From contig JAJFLC010000015.1 of assembly GCA_021772895.1 (NCBI GenBank), positions 124,001 to 188,000 of the forward strand: a stretch of 64,000 nucleotides of DNA, read 5' to 3'. The notes under the pieces were generated by a model. That model was not told the origin of the DNA, made no database searches, and saw only the letters and a program-made list of their open reading frames with translations. Positions 8,191-62,473 of this stretch are shown one piece after another. Source of the DNA: Mariprofundaceae bacterium. Its GTDB lineage: Bacteria > Pseudomonadota > Zetaproteobacteria > Mariprofundales > Mariprofundaceae. How positions within the stretch are numbered: position 1 is the stretch's first letter; the number at the start of each line of letters is the position of its first letter. A program made the translations under genes and the position numbers.

Positions 8191-8502
8191 ATGACGAAGA
8201 AAAGAGCAGCATACAAAACATACACGCGAGCATTCAAACTTGAAGCGGTACGATTGATGGAGACATCAGACCGTCCATCATCCGAGATAGCGATGGAACT
8301 TGGGATTCGCCGTAATCAGCTTTACAAGTGGAAAGAGCAGTTGAGTCAGAAAGGCAATGAAGCTTTTACCCGCTCAGTAGGCCGCCCAAAGAGAGAAGAT
8401 CAAAGCGCGATGACAACTCTGAAACAGGAAAATGCACGGCTGAAAGAGGAGAACGAGATTCTAAAAAAAGCCGCTGCGTACTTTGCCAGAGAGCTTGCGT
8501 GA
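8191..8502 (+). CDS. IS3-family transposase OrfA
   Basis: A 103-residue DNA-binding subunit. A helix-turn-helix (about residues 25-50, SSEIAMELGIRRNQLYKW) precedes a leucine-zipper-like coiled coil near residues 75-98. The ATG follows GAGGAG. It overlaps orfB by four bases (GTGA). In this family OrfAB is made by frameshifting near that overlap, and the AAAAAA run shortly upstream (8462-8467) is a plausible slip site. OrfA looks intact. Confidence 0.9.
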   Translation: MTKKRAAYKTYTRAFKLEAVRLMETSDRPSSEIAMELGIRRNQLYKWKEQLSQKGNEAFTRSVGRPKREDQSAMTTLKQENARLKEENEILKKAAAYFARELA

Positions 8503-9360
8503 AGTACGCATTCATTCGAGAACATCGGCAGCAATACACGGCGAAACGTATGTGTAAGGTGTTGAGCGTATCGAGCAGTGGTTATTATGATTGGTGTGAT
8601 CGCCCAGAAAGTCAGCGCAGTCGATCAAATCGCGGCTTAATTACCAAGATACGCTGTTTTCATCAGGCCAGCCACAGAACTTATGGCTCACCTCGAATCC
8701 ATTATGATCTCCAGGCCTCTGGTGAGGCTGTCAGCATTAATCGTGTTGCCAGATTAATGAGAAACAGGCTGGTATCCAGTCAAAGATGGCAAAGCGTTTT
8801 GTCGTTACAACAGATTCGAAGAACACCATGCAACCCGCATCCGATCAGCTCAAACGTCAATTTAAAGTCAAAGCACCCAATCGAGCTTGGGTATCGGATA
8901 CTACGTTTATCGCAACACGTCAGGGATGGCTCTATTTGGCTGTCATCCTTGATCTCTATTCCCGTCAGGTTATTGGCTGGGCGATGGGCAATAGAAATGA
9001 CAGACAACTTGTTTCGAGTGCCTTAACCATGGCGGTTTGGCGCAGAGGTATGGTCAAGCAGGTGATTGTTCATTCTGATCAGGGCAGTACTTATGCATCC
9101 AGTATTATCAAAACCTTCTAAAGCAACACAGTCTTGTCTGTAGCATGAGCCGTAAAGGTGAGTGTCTAGACAATGCTGTAGCAGAGAGCTTCTTTGGCAC
9201 TTTGAAAACTGAATGGGTTGACGATGAGGACTACAAAACCAAAGATGAGGCGAAAGTGAGTTTGTTTCATTATATCGAAGCATTCTACAATCGTAGAAGA
9301 AGACACTCGTTTCTGGGCTATATCAGCCCAGTCGAATTTGAGGCAAATAGTGTCTCTTAA
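8499..9360 (+). pseudogene. IS3-family transposase OrfB, frameshifted twice
   Basis: The DDE integrase domain is spread over three frames. Frame one (8499 to about 8770) carries the HTH_21-like start with HRTYGSPRIH. A shift near 8768-8775 moves to GIQSKMAKRF and the first Asp (VSDTTFI) and second Asp (HSDQGSTY). A second shift near 9100-9115 is needed to read LLKQHSLVCSMSRKGECLDN and the catalytic Glu in AVAESFFGTLK. No single frame encodes all three catalytic residues, so the gene is inactive as it stands. Confidence 0.9.
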
Positions 9361-44573: not shown

Positions 44574-44649
44574 GCGCCTATAGCTCAGTTGGTAGAGTAG
44601 CGGACTTTTAATCCGTGGGCCCTTGGTTCGAGTCCAAGTGGGCGCACCA
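44574..44649 (+). tRNA. tRNA-Lys (UUU)
   Basis: A 76-base cloverleaf with encoded CCA. The acceptor stem GCGCCTA pairs with TGGGCGC, the anticodon arm GCGGA-CTTTTAA-TCCGT presents TTT (Lys), and the T arm is CTTGGTTCGAGTCCAAG. It lies next to the integrase gene, which makes its 3' part the likely attachment site of the prophage. The whole tRNA remains intact. Confidence 0.97.
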
Positions 44650-51967: not shown

Positions 51968-53016
51968 AGCGTCACCTTCACGCCCATTACACTAGGAGGT
52001 GTCGCCAACCCTGAAATTGGGACGCTATCAATCACAAGGCTTGGATGTGCTAACATTTCAGAAATAGTTGCATGATCATCTTCGTGAACCAGTTCAGCCG
52101 CTGCCATGGCAAGCTGTGAAAAAGGATCAACCAAGACAACCGTTCCATGTGCTAGGTTTGCATTACCTTCAAATGGGTGTGGTACATTTGGCATATTACG
52201 CAGTTTTCGTGTCATGGTGATTTCAACCTGATCAAAGACAGGGTTTGCAAGTGCTGCGATATTTTCCTGTAATTTCACAGAGTCAGCCAAAGCCTCAGTC
52301 TTTGGCCAGGGGAGACGTTTCACAAGTTCATACTGTTTTTTACCCTTGCTTGTGATAATGTTCTTTGGGCTAATGTGATCGGAGCCATGGTATGCCCATG
52401 AAGGATCAGCAGCAACGGAGGTTGCAAGAATAGTTCCAGCTGGAATGCCTGCTCTGTTTCCGGCCTTTGCCATAAGTGCATAAACAAAAACAGGGATATC
52501 GCCATTCCCAAGATTATAGGGTGGCGATGCCTGAATATACCGGCTATACACATAGCCAGTTCGAGGGCTACTGGATGTGCTACGCATGCCAACGCGCGCA
52601 GCATAGGTTGTGAAATGAGCATGAGAAGATATATAGATATTCGCACCCGGACTGGCGCCAAGAAACCAACCCATTGTGTAACTACCACCGGTGAGTACAA
52701 TTTCACCGTTCTGAACGCCTGTGAAATAATGAGATTGTGATGCTGTTGCAGATTTCAACTCTGACTGACCAACAGCACTGGCAACAATCTCAGACTGGCC
52801 AACCCCGTTAGCAGCTATTTTTGATGCAGTAATTGAATCATTTGCAAATTTAGCTGATGTAACAGCTAGATCATTAATCGCTGCCGTTTGAACTTTCGGT
52901 GCGCCAGCATCACCATTAGCCATTGCTGCAGTATTATCACGTAATGAATTCATAAGTGCTACAGTGATTGGCGAATCCGCATCAATATCTGTATTAGGGA
53001 TCGTTGTCCAAACCAT
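51964..53016 (-). CDS. Phage tail fibre protein
   Basis: A 350-residue protein. The N-terminal half has repeated AINDLAVTSAKFANDSITASKI-type strands (landmark NDSITASKI) typical of trimeric fibres; the C-terminal half holds KLRNMPNVPHPFEGNAN and a DPFSQLAMAAAEL segment. It is probably a side or tip fibre; the exact role is not known. Confidence 0.7.
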   Translation of the reverse strand: MVWTTIPNTDIDADSPITVALMNSLRDNTAAMANGDAGAPKVQTAAINDLAVTSAKFANDSITASKIAANGVGQSEIVASAVGQSELKSATASQSHYFTGVQNGEIVLTGGSYTMGWFLGASPGANIYISSHAHFTTYAARVGMRSTSSSPRTGYVYSRYIQASPPYNLGNGDIPVFVYALMAKAGNRAGIPAGTILATSVAADPSWAYHGSDHISPKNIITSKGKKQYELVKRLPWPKTEALADSVKLQENIAALANPVFDQVEITMTRKLRNMPNVPHPFEGNANLAHGTVVLVDPFSQLAMAAAELVHEDDHATISEMLAHPSLVIDSVPISGLATPPSVMGVKVTL

Positions 53017-56186: not shown

Positions 56187-56959
56187 ACTTCAGCCATCGC
56201 TTTCATATGAACATCCATGAAAACGGAGTTTGAATATTTAGGAACCCGCATGTCATTGTTTCTATCAATCCAGCAAAATGCAGCTTCATCTGGATAATTG
56301 ACTTCATCCCATGAAACAAAAAAAGGGTTGGCCTTAGCGTGCTCATGAAAAGGCATCCAGGTGGATCGAACCCATGCAGGTGAACGATGTTTAAACGATA
56401 GTGACATTTTACCCGCATGATCACGCAAGGATTTACCAAGAAAAGATCCTGTCAGGCTTTTTGAAGATGTTGTTTTATAATCACGAGACAGAGGCGGGAC
56501 AAAACCAATTTGTGGTGCCTGCCCAATATCCAGCACTGAACCAAAGGCAATAACACCGACTTTGGGTTGAAAACTTGTTGCTCCTGCGTCACGACGAAAT
56601 AGTACTTGCCAATACATATCGGAAACAGCACTAAATGAAACAAAATTCACGCCACTATTTATTGGCATCCACCCCCCGGAAACAGCTGTCCAGATCACGC
56701 CATCAAATGAATGTTGCAATAGAAACTCATCAGTTAATGAGTTAAGGTCATGTGCTGAAAATGAAATATAATCACACTGCTGAAGTGAAAGGCATGCGAA
56801 AGAAATCTGTGGATATACAGCTACCGCATCGATTTGCCAAAAGTCAAATGGCAACCAGTCAAAGACATTTTCAACAGGATTTAGCGTTGCAGACTGAGTG
56901 CTGGAAACGGTCACACCGAGTCTCCCTGCAAGGTTTTCATAGCCAATTTTCACGCTCAT
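56183..56959 (-). CDS. Phage tail protein
   Basis: A 258-residue structural protein located directly after the tape measure gene, the position of distal tail or tail-tip proteins in lambda-like phages. It is beta-rich with DNSLTDEFLLQHSFDG-like strands (landmark DEFLLQHSFDG) and a CWIDRNNDMRVPKY segment. Its start shares one base with the tape-measure stop (TAATG). Confidence 0.7.
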   Translation of the reverse strand: MSVKIGYENLAGRLGVTVSSTQSATLNPVENVFDWLPFDFWQIDAVAVYPQISFACLSLQQCDYISFSAHDLNSLTDEFLLQHSFDGVIWTAVSGGWMPINSGVNFVSFSAVSDMYWQVLFRRDAGATSFQPKVGVIAFGSVLDIGQAPQIGFVPPLSRDYKTTSSKSLTGSFLGKSLRDHAGKMSLSFKHRSPAWVRSTWMPFHEHAKANPFFVSWDEVNYPDEAAFCWIDRNNDMRVPKYSNSVFMDVHMKAMAEV

Positions 56960-59121
56960 TATGCCACCCTCAACTGGACACCATTATCAGTCTCTTCATT
57001 AATCGCTTCGATCAGACTGCGCACATCACTCGATGAATAAATACCTTTCTCAACAGATACGCTGACCTGTTGTACAGGTGCCTTCTGACTGGGTTCATTG
57101 GATAATGATTGCGATGGTGCTGATGGAATTGTCGAGTCAGCAGATTTGCCAGCACTACCGCCGCTGACACTAGGGACTCCCCCCCCTGAAGAAACACTTG
57201 CCGATTTAGAGCCAAATGATGTTGATGCAATACTTGAAATCATCGCACCAGTTTTTGCCAACGATGCGGCTGTATACGCAACCGCAACAACAGGCGCATA
57301 CGGGCCACCAACCTGCATGCCAGCGTCCCATGCCGCGATAGCTGCTGATATACCACTAATCGTTGCATTTGCTAATGCAGCAGCCTTGCCGACCTCAAAA
57401 GCTGCCCGGCTATTTGAATTCATCAATGAGCTCATATCACCTAAAGCACTTTGGGCACCCGAAAGCAAAGCTTTATTTTTTTTCTTTTCTAAATCTTTTT
57501 CTGATTTTCCAGCTTTATCTCGAATAGCAGAAATTTTATTCTCACCATCGGCAATAACAGAATTTTTTGCCTCTTCATAAAGTGTTTGTTGCTCAAGGTT
57601 CCATGCGTTGTTATCAATCAACTGCTGCTTATCATATTCCAACTTCTCAAGATCTTTATCAAACTTAAGAATTGCCTTCTCTTCTTCCAGCATCATATTT
57701 TCATCAGCAATCTGGCGCATACTTTCAAAGCGCTCGCGAGTTTTATTGATTAATGCCTGAGTCGTTGCGTCATAATTTGAAAGCTCGGGATTAGCATCAG
57801 GATTGGCATCATCATTGACAGCCGGATCAGTGCCTAGATTAGCATCATCATTGGCAGGTAAACGAGCTGCCAACCTTGCTTTCTCGACTATCTTAGCTCG
57901 TTTCGCTGCCTCATCATTCATGGTTGTCGTAACTTCTTGTAGTTTCTCCGAAAGCATCGGTGCCGCGAGAATTTTATCCATACTATTAAAATCTTTAGCT
58001 ACCGCGGCCCATGCCTCCGTAGAAGATTGATGTAAGTCAACATTTTTAACCTTCAATACATCCAGATGCTCTCCGATAACAGGAATAGAGCTAATCATAT
58101 TGTTAAACACATCACCAAAAAATGAACCAGACTTTGGTTTATTTCCGATAAAATTAACAATTGCACCATCAACATCGGCAATGCCTTCGATGACACTTGC
58201 TTTTGCGATATCCCAACCAAGATTTATTTTCGAAAATCCATAGGATGCTGTCTGAACCGCATCGCCAAGAAAACCAACGACGTTTATAACCTGGGTGATA
58301 CCACTATGAATATTTTTTGTTGATAAGATACCACTTCTTGCCAAATCAGAAAATGCATTGCTGCCTGCAATAATCCATGGCGCAAGCTCAGAAGCGATGG
58401 AGTTACCAACGCCTGCAACAGCTGATTCTGCCTTTAACATAGCTTTATTGGCCAATTCCATCTTAGCGGCATCAACTCTGTTAATTGCGATCCCAAGATA
58501 ATCAGCCTCTTTTGCTGATGCCTGCATACCCTCTTTACCCAGTGCCAGTGTACGAACTAACGAGATGCCTTCAGAGCCAAACAGGTTCACTGCCAGACGA
58601 CTCTTATCGAACTGCGACCCAACCTGACTCATCGCACCAGCTACTTCCTGCATGGCCTGATCAACAGGCATTCTTGAAAGCACCTCAGCATCAAGGCTCA
58701 GTGCTCTCAAAGCACCATTTGCTTCCCCCGTGCCTTGTGCAGCCTCTGCAAGACGAGCTGTAAAGTTCTGTGTGGCCACATCCATCGTGTTAAAATCAAC
58801 ACCGGTCTGTTGACCAGCATAACGCAAGCCTGCCAAAGACTCTGTTGTCATACCAAGTCTATCCGCTGTTTTAGCAAGCTCATCGCCCGCCAGTAGTGAC
58901 TGCATAGTTAGCGCACCAATCCCTTCAACAGCAGCGAGGGCCATATCAGCGACCGGTAATTTTGTGAGTAAGGAACCAAATTCGTCAGCAGTGGATGAAG
59001 TGACCGAGGAAATAGTTTCCATGCTTGCAATAGCAGCAGCTTCAGCCTTCGCAAACGCCTCTTCAGCAGATTTCGAGTCAATTGTAGTTAAATTTTTGAT
59101 TTTAGCGTTTGCTTTTTTCAC
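56959..59121 (-). CDS. Tail tape measure protein
   Basis: A 720-residue protein that sets tail length. The GTG at 59121 is the start: AAGGAGG lies upstream and the GTGA overlaps the stop of the -1 chaperone frame. It is rich in Ala, Lys and long helices (TADRLGMTTESLAGL, LEYDKQQLIDNNAWN), with hydrophobic helices near residues 590-640. At about 1.5 angstrom per residue the tail would be near 110 nm. Its place beside the chaperones is standard. Confidence 0.93.
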   Translation of the reverse strand: MKKANAKIKNLTTIDSKSAEEAFAKAEAAAIASMETISSVTSSTADEFGSLLTKLPVADMALAAVEGIGALTMQSLLAGDELAKTADRLGMTTESLAGLRYAGQQTGVDFNTMDVATQNFTARLAEAAQGTGEANGALRALSLDAEVLSRMPVDQAMQEVAGAMSQVGSQFDKSRLAVNLFGSEGISLVRTLALGKEGMQASAKEADYLGIAINRVDAAKMELANKAMLKAESAVAGVGNSIASELAPWIIAGSNAFSDLARSGILSTKNIHSGITQVINVVGFLGDAVQTASYGFSKINLGWDIAKASVIEGIADVDGAIVNFIGNKPKSGSFFGDVFNNMISSIPVIGEHLDVLKVKNVDLHQSSTEAWAAVAKDFNSMDKILAAPMLSEKLQEVTTTMNDEAAKRAKIVEKARLAARLPANDDANLGTDPAVNDDANPDANPELSNYDATTQALINKTRERFESMRQIADENMMLEEEKAILKFDKDLEKLEYDKQQLIDNNAWNLEQQTLYEEAKNSVIADGENKISAIRDKAGKSEKDLEKKKNKALLSGAQSALGDMSSLMNSNSRAAFEVGKAAALANATISGISAAIAAWDAGMQVGGPYAPVVAVAYTAASLAKTGAMISSIASTSFGSKSASVSSGGGVPSVSGGSAGKSADSTIPSAPSQSLSNEPSQKAPVQQVSVSVEKGIYSSSDVRSLIEAINEETDNGVQLRVA

Positions 59122-59399
59122 TGGTTTCCTGCCCTCCTTACAATATCCATACACTCAATCCAAACGGGTGATTGATCGTGCCAACCACCGGCGGTGGGTA
59201 AAATTCCTTTCTGTAACCACCCCCACGACAGGAACACTTCGTCGAACTCATCCAGCATCAGTGCAGGACACCCTTCCGTCTCCATATCCCAGTTATCGAT
59301 CCAGTGATTGCTGCCACCACAACGGGCTGGCTTATCTACTGAGAGAGGACAGTCTCCGCATCGTTTTCCGGTGTGGTAGGCAATGGCTCCGATCCAGAT
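59118..59399 (-). CDS. Tail chaperone, -1 frame part (gpT-like)
   Basis: Ninety-three codons in the -1 frame of the upstream chaperone gene, beginning inside an A9 run and ending in TGA overlapping the tape-measure GTG. The frame has a TAA directly before the A run and no start codon of its own, so it can only be made by frameshifting. The peptide is clearly real protein (RCGDCPLS, NHWIDNWDMETEGCPALMLDE). It would extend the first chaperone to about 202 residues, as gpGT in lambda. Confidence 0.85.
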   Translation of the reverse strand: MWIGAIAYHTGKRCGDCPLSVDKPARCGGSNHWIDNWDMETEGCPALMLDEFDEVFLSWGWLQKGILPTAGGWHDQSPVWIECMDIVRRAGNQ

Positions 59400-59725
59400 T
59401 TTTTTTTAACATCATCTGAAACCAGAAGGTGTTCGACAATCAGTGCTGCAACACCGAGTAAAAACGGCTGATTTTCAGAATCTGTAGTGTCGATATTGTA
59501 ACTCAACTGGCGCGGATCATGACGTTCACCATCCACCTCAACTTCCGAAACACATTCACGCAGTGCATAAAGTGCGATTCGGGTCGATGGATTGGATGAA
59601 ATACGGAAAAAGCCCTGAATTTCAGCCACATGCTCGGGCAGTACAAAACCTAGTCTAAGCCTGATACCAAGCTCTTTATTTTCCAGTGCGTTATCCTTGC
59701 GAGTAAGCAGCTTTAATTTCGACAT
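59336..59725 (-). CDS. Tail assembly chaperone, zero-frame product (gpG-like)
   Basis: A 129-residue protein just upstream of the tape measure gene. The first 109 residues to VSDDVKKK are shared with the frameshift product; the zero-frame tail is SGSEPLPTTPENDAETVLSQ. Helical and acidic features (PEHVAEIQGFFRIS, LLGVAALIVEHLL) fit tail chaperones that coat the tape measure protein before tube assembly. Confidence 0.85.
   Translation of the reverse strand: MSKLKLLTRKDNALENKELGIRLRLGFVLPEHVAEIQGFFRISSNPSTRIALYALRECVSEVEVDGERHDPRQLSYNIDTTDSENQPFLLGVAALIVEHLLVSDDVKKKSGSEPLPTTPENDAETVLSQ
59399..59407 (-). promoter_or_regulatory. Likely -1 frameshift slippery site (A9)
   Basis: Minus-strand context GTT-AAA-AAA-AAA-TCT contains A-AAA-AAA, a canonical -1 slippery heptamer, within the chaperone gene 61 bases before its zero-frame stop. 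Slipping joins the 109-residue chaperone core to the 93-residue -1 extension. Transcriptional slippage on the A9 run is an alternative mechanism with a similar result. Confidence 0.75.
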
Positions 59726-59734
59726 TTCAGCCCC

Positions 59735-60673
59735 TTAATCAATCGTGATTTGATAGGCATCGTCACCTACCGTCTCATTCAGCTTCAAGGTGATGTCACG
59801 GTTGTTAAACAAACCATCTGCGGCAGGTGTAACGACTTCATATTGGGCTGCCGATGCAGACAAAGTGAAACGATTTCCAGCCGAACCAAACTGAGCAAGA
59901 AATGCTGCTTCAGTGAGACCTGTTAAACGATTAAAATCGGCTGCGGTAGCCAATGAGCGTTTAGAAAAAGTTACACTGGACTTGTCGCGCCCGGTTACCA
60001 GTGCCTGAACATCGCCAATCATGTGTGGTACATCGGTGGCAACGCCTGCATCAAAAGCAAACGTACCGACTGAAATAGGAGTTGCCGCTTCACTGACAAC
60101 ATCGGATGCCGATACCTTAATCGGGTCAGATGATTGATATGTGATGCCCGTAGGTAGCACTACAGTAGTCGGCGCCACATATGGTGCCACAATAGTTGCT
60201 TTGCCTGTGATGTAACCATTAATTGGCGCATCAAACTGAAACGTTGCAACAGCACCAATAAGCTTCCATAGCAGACCATCCTCATACCAGTAAAAGGTTG
60301 AAGTCTGGCGTGCTGTATCCGGGCCGGTAGTGATCGGATCCATGACAACACTGACGGGTACAGTGGCGACTGTATTGATGGTAATTGTATGTGCGGCAGA
60401 AAACATAACCGGCCAATAATCAGGTATAATGCCAAGGCCGCCACCAGAGCGAATTTTAAAGCTGACCTCCAATTGATTCTGTTTCTCAATCATATTGGAC
60501 TTCATATCACCAAAGGTCTGTTTTACACCCTGATTAGCCAAAGCTTCAATACCGGTTGTAAACGTTCCCGATTCAATACGGATGGCATTTAATGCTGCCG
60601 TCGGAACCGAATCGGTACCCGGTGTCGATTCAATTTTACCTAACAGGGCCTTTTGTAATGTACTTACACTCAT
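59735..60673 (-). CDS. Major tail tube protein
   Basis: A 312-residue protein located directly before the tail chaperones, the position of the tail tube subunit (gpV in lambda). It is beta-rich and ends in an Ig-like or tail-tube strand pattern (RDITLKLNETVGDDAY). GAGAGGAG precedes the start. The 45-codon gene overlaps its start by ATGA. Confidence 0.85.
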   Translation of the reverse strand: MSVSTLQKALLGKIESTPGTDSVPTAALNAIRIESGTFTTGIEALANQGVKQTFGDMKSNMIEKQNQLEVSFKIRSGGGLGIIPDYWPVMFSAAHTITINTVATVPVSVVMDPITTGPDTARQTSTFYWYEDGLLWKLIGAVATFQFDAPINGYITGKATIVAPYVAPTTVVLPTGITYQSSDPIKVSASDVVSEAATPISVGTFAFDAGVATDVPHMIGDVQALVTGRDKSSVTFSKRSLATAADFNRLTGLTEAAFLAQFGSAGNRFTLSASAAQYEVVTPAADGLFNNRDITLKLNETVGDDAYQITID

Positions 60674-60807
60674 GATTTACTCTCCTCTCCATTATCTGGC
60701 CTGACTAATGTACGTGGAACAAACCCAGTCAGACGTTTATCGTTATTTTTTTTGGTTGCTATTTTTTTGCCCACCGGTTTTTTTCTGTTTTTCTTTATAG
60801 TTGTCAC
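60670..60807 (-). CDS. Small Lys-rich phage protein
   Basis: A 45-residue highly basic protein (TTIKKNRKKPVGKKIATKK landmark KKNRKKPVGKKIATKK, then RLTGFVPRTLVR). Its GTG overlaps the tail-terminator stop (GTGA) and its stop overlaps the tube start (ATGA), so it exactly fills the gap. It may bind DNA or a tail partner; no family is recognised. Confidence 0.6.
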   Translation of the reverse strand: MTTIKKNRKKPVGKKIATKKNNDKRLTGFVPRTLVRPDNGEESKS

Positions 60808-61247
60808 ACCAATACCCCCGGATCTGTTTCACGCACAAAATACGTCGCCGTAAAGTCCATAACAGCTTCACCCACAGGGTTTGTTGCAGTGATATTCAAG
60901 CCTGCCAGCGTATTGTTCAGCACAAGATCAGCCGTCAAGCCCCCGAGTGTAGGATCAACAGCCAGCGCCTTTTCCACCTCAAGACAAATCTGATCTAATC
61001 CATCATCCAGTGTTGAGGTAGCTGAGACCACCGCATGTACCTGAAGCTCAAGTTTACGCTCCTGCTCACGGTTGCTACCCAACGATACTCGCAAGGCATC
61101 ATCTTTTAATGCATATAGCAGCAGACATGGGAATGGACCCTGATCTACCACATGCAATCGTGATAAGAACACATTACTGCCAGTCGTAGTCAGCCCGGTT
61201 AGAACTGTGCTTATAGCATCACGGATCTGTTTACGTGCATGTGCCAT
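60804..61247 (-). CDS. Tail terminator/completion-like protein
   Basis: A 147-residue protein with an N-terminal helix (HARKQIRDAISTVLTGL) and a beta-sheet core (ERKLELQVHAVVSA, DQICLEVEKALAVD), the pattern of gpU-type tail terminators. Its position before the tube gene agrees. GAGGAAG precedes the start. Confidence 0.75.
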   Translation of the reverse strand: MAHARKQIRDAISTVLTGLTTTGSNVFLSRLHVVDQGPFPCLLLYALKDDALRVSLGSNREQERKLELQVHAVVSATSTLDDGLDQICLEVEKALAVDPTLGGLTADLVLNNTLAGLNITATNPVGEAVMDFTATYFVRETDPGVLV

Positions 61248-62040: not shown

Positions 62041-62473
62041 ACCACCTTATCAATTTCGACCTGGGCCAAGGCTGGATCGGCAGTAAGAGCTGGATCAGCA
62101 GCAATCACAGCCAGAGCCGAGGATAAATCCAAGCATCCATGCCGTACCGTTCCATGTGTGGTGTGGTGCAGGTAGTGGAGTAGCAGTGAGTGTTGAAGGT
62201 AAAATACCAATGTTAGTATGTTCTTCCGGTGAGCCATCCGTAGCATAAACGGTGCCTCGGTGATCTTCTTTTTTTACCCATTTTTTGTTCAATTCATTGA
62301 ACACTGTAACCTTTCCCACTCCGATGGTCGCAGGTGGTGTCACATCGGTTACGTGGGCTGGAACCAACGATTTTTTTTTCAACAGGATCAAGATCAAAGA
62401 CATCGGTACCCAATAATTCAAACGTGACCGGATGATAGTGGAAAATAGGAATGTTGTTAGTTGTCATTGGCAT
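62034..62473 (-). pseudogene. Decayed tail-fibre assembly chaperone (copy 2)
   Basis: A decayed paralogue of the gene at 63413. It starts well (ATG 62473 with GGAG, MPMTTNNIPIFHYHPV) but an A9 run at 62371-62379 shifts the frame by one base before SLVPAHVTDV; the HHTWNGTAW block follows. Then about 100 codons are missing: the frame ends GSGCDCC, while LSSALAVIAADPALTADPAL and QVEIDKVVW are read in another frame. One base less in the A run would restore the first join. Confidence 0.8.

Follow-up and report, generated by a model that had tools for sequence, protein, structure and literature searches.

A tail assembly chaperone gene with a probable lambda-type −1 frameshift and an uncatalogued T extension in an integrated element of a Mariprofundaceae bacterium

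Reading frames at the chaperone locus

The window, the whole stretch of 64,000 nucleotides of DNA that was analyzed from a Mariprofundaceae bacterium, contains a group of tail genes on the minus strand in which a gene with two overlapping reading frames lies directly upstream of the tape-measure gene. The features of this group are as follows.

60804..61247, minus strand: tail terminator of a flexible-tail module (PHROG 4204, E 1.2e-19)
59735..60673, minus strand: probable major tail (tube) protein, 312 aa, lying between the terminator and G, with a relative of 308-309 aa in the same place in L011 and G076:C95
59336..59725, minus strand: G, putative zero-frame tail assembly chaperone, 129 aa, an open reading frame from ATG at 59725 to TAG at 59336; residues 1-109 are common to the predicted frameshift product
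59399..59407, minus strand: A9 run in the sequence, with the in-phase slippery heptamer A_AAA_AAA at 59405-59399
59406..59408, minus strand: TAA in the sequence, closing the −1 frame directly 5′ of the slip; the same layout is found in the relative L019
59118..59399, minus strand: T, −1 frame extension, 93 codons (ATC 59399-59397 to CAG 59123-59121) and TGA 59120-59118, recognized from translation, relatives, alignment and AlphaFold2
56959..59121, minus strand: tape-measure protein (PHROG 9483 tape measure, E 2.6e-85), whose GTG at 59121-59119 overlaps the T stop

G/T is thus placed between the terminator and tube pair on one side and the tape measure on the other. The tube protein was assigned by its position, no match having been obtained among the PHROGs.

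Over the A9 run, the zero-frame codons are GTT AAA AAA AAA TCT, in which A_AAA_AAA is the only in-phase heptamer. The first two A's of the run form part of the TAA at 59408-59406; beyond this stop, the −1 frame reads K K I W I G A (AAA AAA ATC TGG ATC GGA and onward) and is open to the TGA at 59120-59118. The zero-frame G product has 20 codons beyond the slip, and a −1 slip would join 109 residues of G to the 93 of T in a GT fusion of 202 residues. A sequence-only reading of this DNA had proposed a programmed frameshift here. Its placement of the A9 run and of the in-phase heptamer was correct to the base, its coordinates for the preceding TAA and for the 93-codon frame ending at the tape-measure GTG were exact when re-derived, and its sizes of 109 and 93 residues add up to the fusion given above. 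The accompanying statement that the −1 frame has no start of its own was accurate for the 90 nt adjoining the slip, within which the window sequence has no start codon, but not for the deeper part of the extension, which contains in-frame ATGs, the first at 59285. A start at this ATG would drop the slip-proximal half of T, including three of the four conserved cysteines described below.

Relatives of T and their junctions

The T extension was 31.5% identical to a sequence of Microcystis phage Mae-JY22 (E 5e-6) and 40-41% identical to sequences from two genomes of the same bacterial family (E about 2e-11), and relatives occurred twice in one genome of the same order. A profile built from six T sequences detected relatives in 48 viral contigs, one of which led to further relatives in phages of Rhizobium, Agrobacterium, Rhodobacter and Alteromonas. 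With single sequences as queries, a scan of genome contigs with T gave one locus, in a Mariprofundaceae MAG, and a scan of viral contigs with GT gave no relatives; a scan with the tube protein likewise gave none. About 50 further loci code for T relatives, and both the T protein and the arrangement of the two frames are conserved among them. T lay in the −1 frame of the upstream gene G in all the loci read; G relatives occupied the same place in the tail operon, and the position before the tape measure was kept in relatives where this gene was annotated. As evidence that would count against it, the sequence-only reading had named homologues whose −1 frame forms a separate gene with a start codon of its own; such cases were looked for, and the loci read had instead the −1 frame with a heptamer at the junction. 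Three tape-measure relatives, from Alteromonas PB15, Vibrio K303 and Caudoviricetes sp. ctUhy936, had non-homologous −1 frames beside G and were not used.

The junction heptamers were A_AAA_AAC, A_AAA_AAG and A_AAA_AAA or, less often, G_GGA_AAN. When T sequences were clustered at 70% identity, a heptamer of the form A_AAA_AAN or G_GGA_AAN was present at the junction in 33 of 33 clusters, compared with 4 of 4,813 in-phase codons upstream in G, the former figure being a favorable one as the heptamer was picked for each locus with a preference for A- or G-rich motifs. Three loci (L050, L051 and L064), in which G or the junction could not be confidently read, were left out of the site statistics. 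All the junction heptamers fell at one alignment position, corresponding to the KK that opens T, and in the T alignment homology extended to these KK residues coded by the slippery site. T carries a CxxC...C...CP...GGWxDQ signature with four conserved cysteines, and an AlphaFold2 model of T had a mean pLDDT of 84 and a pTM of 0.74. Comparison of these sequences indicates that the −1 frame T is a real protein, and the four cysteines suggest that its domain may be metal-binding.

In some deposited records, T is detached from G. It appears as a separate open reading frame in Mae-JY22, L338C, RHph_I4, JP1 and RcTiptonus, and in most of these records the T homology reaches upstream past the annotated start to the slippery site. 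The T of Mae-JY22, of Rhizobium phage L338C and of Agrobacterium phage JP1 is annotated as a separate hypothetical gene and that of Alteromonas phage P24 was left without annotation; these four phages share with the window the T family and its −1 frame, their sites being A_AAA_AAC or G_GGA_AAC. In Rhodobacter phage RcTiptonus, gp42 is the G homologue by position and was deposited as a tail assembly chaperone. As in the window, the RcTiptonus T relative (gp43) follows in the −1 frame, after A_AAA_AAG, and adjoins the tape measure; unlike in the window, the pair is annotated as two genes, T being deposited as a separate hypothetical one, and the phage was isolated with complete virions. Identity between the RcTiptonus T and a relative of the window's T is low, at about 30%. 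A paper on phages of the RcTiptonus group states that most of them carry the frameshift usual in tail chaperone genes (PMC8601537).

Scans of Pfam, PHROG and NCBIfam gave nothing credible for T, as did scans of Pfam and PHROG for G, and neither protein had a PDB match by sequence or by fold. The profile search of the 93-residue extension for gpT-like families that had been suggested in the sequence-only reading therefore led to no known family. The AlphaFold2 model of G had a confident fold from residue 11 to residue 100 and predicted disorder beyond the slip, and a Foldseek search of this model against BFVD returned several named tail assembly chaperones among weak matches (E >= 0.02, TM <= 0.48). 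The proposed likeness to lambda gpG/gpGT accordingly stood for the organization of the locus (its position, the −1 direction and the sizes) but did not extend to protein families, since neither half matches Pfam or the PHROGs; the relation to lambda is one of organization. On these searches, the G/T family is widespread yet has no entry in the protein-family libraries searched, G being divergent and T having been split off or missed in annotation. With a profile made from the family alignments, many such phages could be annotated.

A mechanical test of phase, length and open frame was passed by three sites in the 64 kb of the window, the tail chaperone site included. The other two were at 52341, on an overlapping frame of another open reading frame, and at 8463, in an IS3-type orfA/orfB pair (8191-9121) where A_AAA_AAA followed by G represents the usual frameshift of such elements. 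For the G/T slip site, sequence conservation is stronger evidence than this window-wide chance count.

Proposed mechanism and alternatives

In phage lambda, many copies of G bind the tape measure, and recruitment of the tube protein falls to the T part of GT; the ratio of G to GT is set by a low level of −1 frameshifting, and G/GT frameshifting is widely conserved (PMC5009743). Like the window locus, the lambda and HK97-type chaperone genes lie before the tape measure, with G followed by T in the −1 frame, a heptamer at the end of G and products of similar sizes. The window locus differs from lambda in the conserved CxxC...C...CP...GGWxDQ of its T and in its site, A_AAA_AAA within an A9 run. 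The slippery site of lambda is G_GGA_AAG. It is very probable, in our judgment, that 59725-59118 on the minus strand is a tail assembly chaperone gene from which a programmed −1 frameshift of the lambda G/GT type yields two products; we infer the slip, how efficient it is and the role as a chaperone from the anatomy of the locus and its conservation. Most ribosomes would produce the 129-aa G. In a minority, two lysine tRNAs would re-pair one base back on A_AAA_AAA (59405-59399), and the ribosome would read 93 more codons, yielding the 202-residue GT fusion. By analogy with lambda, G would coat the product of the adjoining tape-measure gene, tail-tube subunits would be recruited through the T part of GT, and G and GT would then leave. 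The mechanism is a textbook one; the protein family is uncatalogued in the libraries searched, and the element around the gene is less ordinary than its frameshift.

The window site has neither a Shine-Dalgarno (SD)-like sequence upstream nor a hairpin downstream (z +1.0 to +1.5), so the A9 run is probably the sole actor, working without stimulators. Among A_AAA_AAC sites, an SD-like sequence was present upstream in 19 of 26 and the median z of the downstream hairpin was −1.9, whereas sites in long A-runs (8-9 A's), that of the window among them, had an SD-like sequence in 2 of 8 and a median hairpin z of +0.4, statistics which ignore shared ancestry. Hairpin z values of the long A-run sites differed from those of all other sites with a Mann-Whitney p of 0.003, shared ancestry again being ignored. 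Six loci (L049, L054, L060, L063, L066 and L067) had a strong hairpin directly 3′ of A_AAA_AAC (z −3.6 to −6.3) and a GAGG-type sequence about 11 nt upstream. In Escherichia coli, slippage is better at all-purine A-site codons (AAA, AAG) than at mixed ones, AAC being an example (PMC4066793), and weaker sites may hence need the help of stimulators. The family offers a natural comparison of slippery strength against stimulators, A_AAA_AAC occurring mostly with an SD-like sequence and a hairpin and long A-runs mostly without.

The same run could act on the polymerase rather than the ribosome: transcripts with ten A's would carry normal translation from G into T. Runs of nine A's are known to be slippage-prone, as in Thermus dnaX (PMC1088944), and runs of 8-9 A's recur in the window and its nearest relatives, where they tend to be without a downstream hairpin. 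Most relatives, however, have only 6-7 A's, or G_GGA_AAC with no run at all, yet keep the in-phase ribosomal heptamer, which makes ribosomal slippage the likelier main route. In addition, hairpins and SD-like sequences accompany the heptamer in most A_AAA_AAC relatives, and every 8-9 A-run of the set has an in-phase heptamer within it. We consider it unlikely that polymerase slippage is the main source of the −1 product, and the two processes are mutually compatible.

Expression of T as an independent gene, through translational coupling or an internal start, would agree with its deposition as a separate open reading frame in some records and with the ATGs inside the extension (59285). This explanation is highly improbable, as the 90 nt adjoining the slip in the window hold no start codon; an internal start would lose the conserved N-terminal half with the first three cysteines, and homology reaches the KK residues that the slippery site encodes. 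A still smaller probability attaches to the two frames being an artefact, either because the A9 run was missequenced or misassembled or because the gene has decayed. Homopolymer runs are error-prone, and decay is conceivable since the element appears without head genes; the same −1 layout, however, recurs across many independent genomes whose slippery sequences differ, both frames are open and conserved, and the adjoining tail genes are intact.

The integrated element

The G/T gene lies within a larger unit, the contractile tail module of which is mostly beyond the window; neither this second tail module nor the apparent lack of head genes figured in the sequence-only reading.

44574 to beyond 64000 of the window (G000:C7:168574-204504): integrated element of 35.9 kb between two copies of a 34-bp tRNA-Lys repeat, the integrase lying at one end and the phage primase at the opposite end

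The tRNA-Lys gene is at 44574-44649, and part of it recurs as a perfect 34-bp repeat 35.9 kb away, beyond the window. In order, the element carries a contractile module (terminator, sheath, tube, chaperone and baseplate), fibers, the flexible-tail module, a lysozyme and a repressor. Genes for a terminase, a portal or a capsid were looked for in the element and not found; across the genome, nothing was detected with Pfam models of the portal, the HK97-type capsid and two terminase families, nor with the terminase and portal of the G041:C8 prophage as queries. The element is termed apparently headless on the basis of these four named families and both searches with homologues, together with the fact that the open reading frames left unassigned are small. 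The chaperone of its contractile tail (PHROG 508) has no in-phase slip site and no −1 extension. The terminators of the two tail modules (60804-61247 and G000:C7:200109-200636) are related, having the same N-terminus, MAHARKQIRDA, and being alignable over 142 residues, a similarity that suggests a shared or duplicated origin.

A siphophage-type prophage of the same bacterial family (G041:C8; loci L076 and L077) shares with the element the primase (56% identity), terminator, tube, G/T and tape measure, its G/T junction being GCA AAA AAA AAG. Unlike the element, this prophage has terminase-, portal- and capsid-like genes in the place taken by the contractile tail module. The dual R/F pyocin cluster of Pseudomonas aeruginosa (PMC9810705) likewise brings tail modules of both kinds together with a lysis cassette and regulators, with no head genes found; the window element differs from it in its integrase and phage primase and in its attachment repeat from tRNA-Lys. 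With both types of tail, no head genes found and a contractile module where the G041:C8 prophage has its head genes, the element resembles a dual R/F tailocin and is a candidate for one by gene content.

A possible, though short of probable, interpretation is a mobile dual R/F-type tailocin in an iron-oxidizer lineage (the order of the Mariprofundaceae), with the frameshifted gene working for its flexible tail and a contractile tail module having taken the place of a siphophage head module. Were this the case, a single element with a single lysis cassette would give rise to both tails, and the flexible one would use an unstimulated A9 slip and a T rich in cysteines that perhaps binds a metal. 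No paper on tailocins in Zetaproteobacteria was found in the literature searched, and the apparently headless dual-tail element constitutes a testable tailocin candidate.

Where the two tail modules meet (62034-64132), tandem copies of fiber and fiber-assembly-like genes are present. A second A9 run occurs here on the minus strand (62371-62379), within a shortened copy of the fiber-assembly-like gene at 63413-64132 which is possibly a decayed duplicate.
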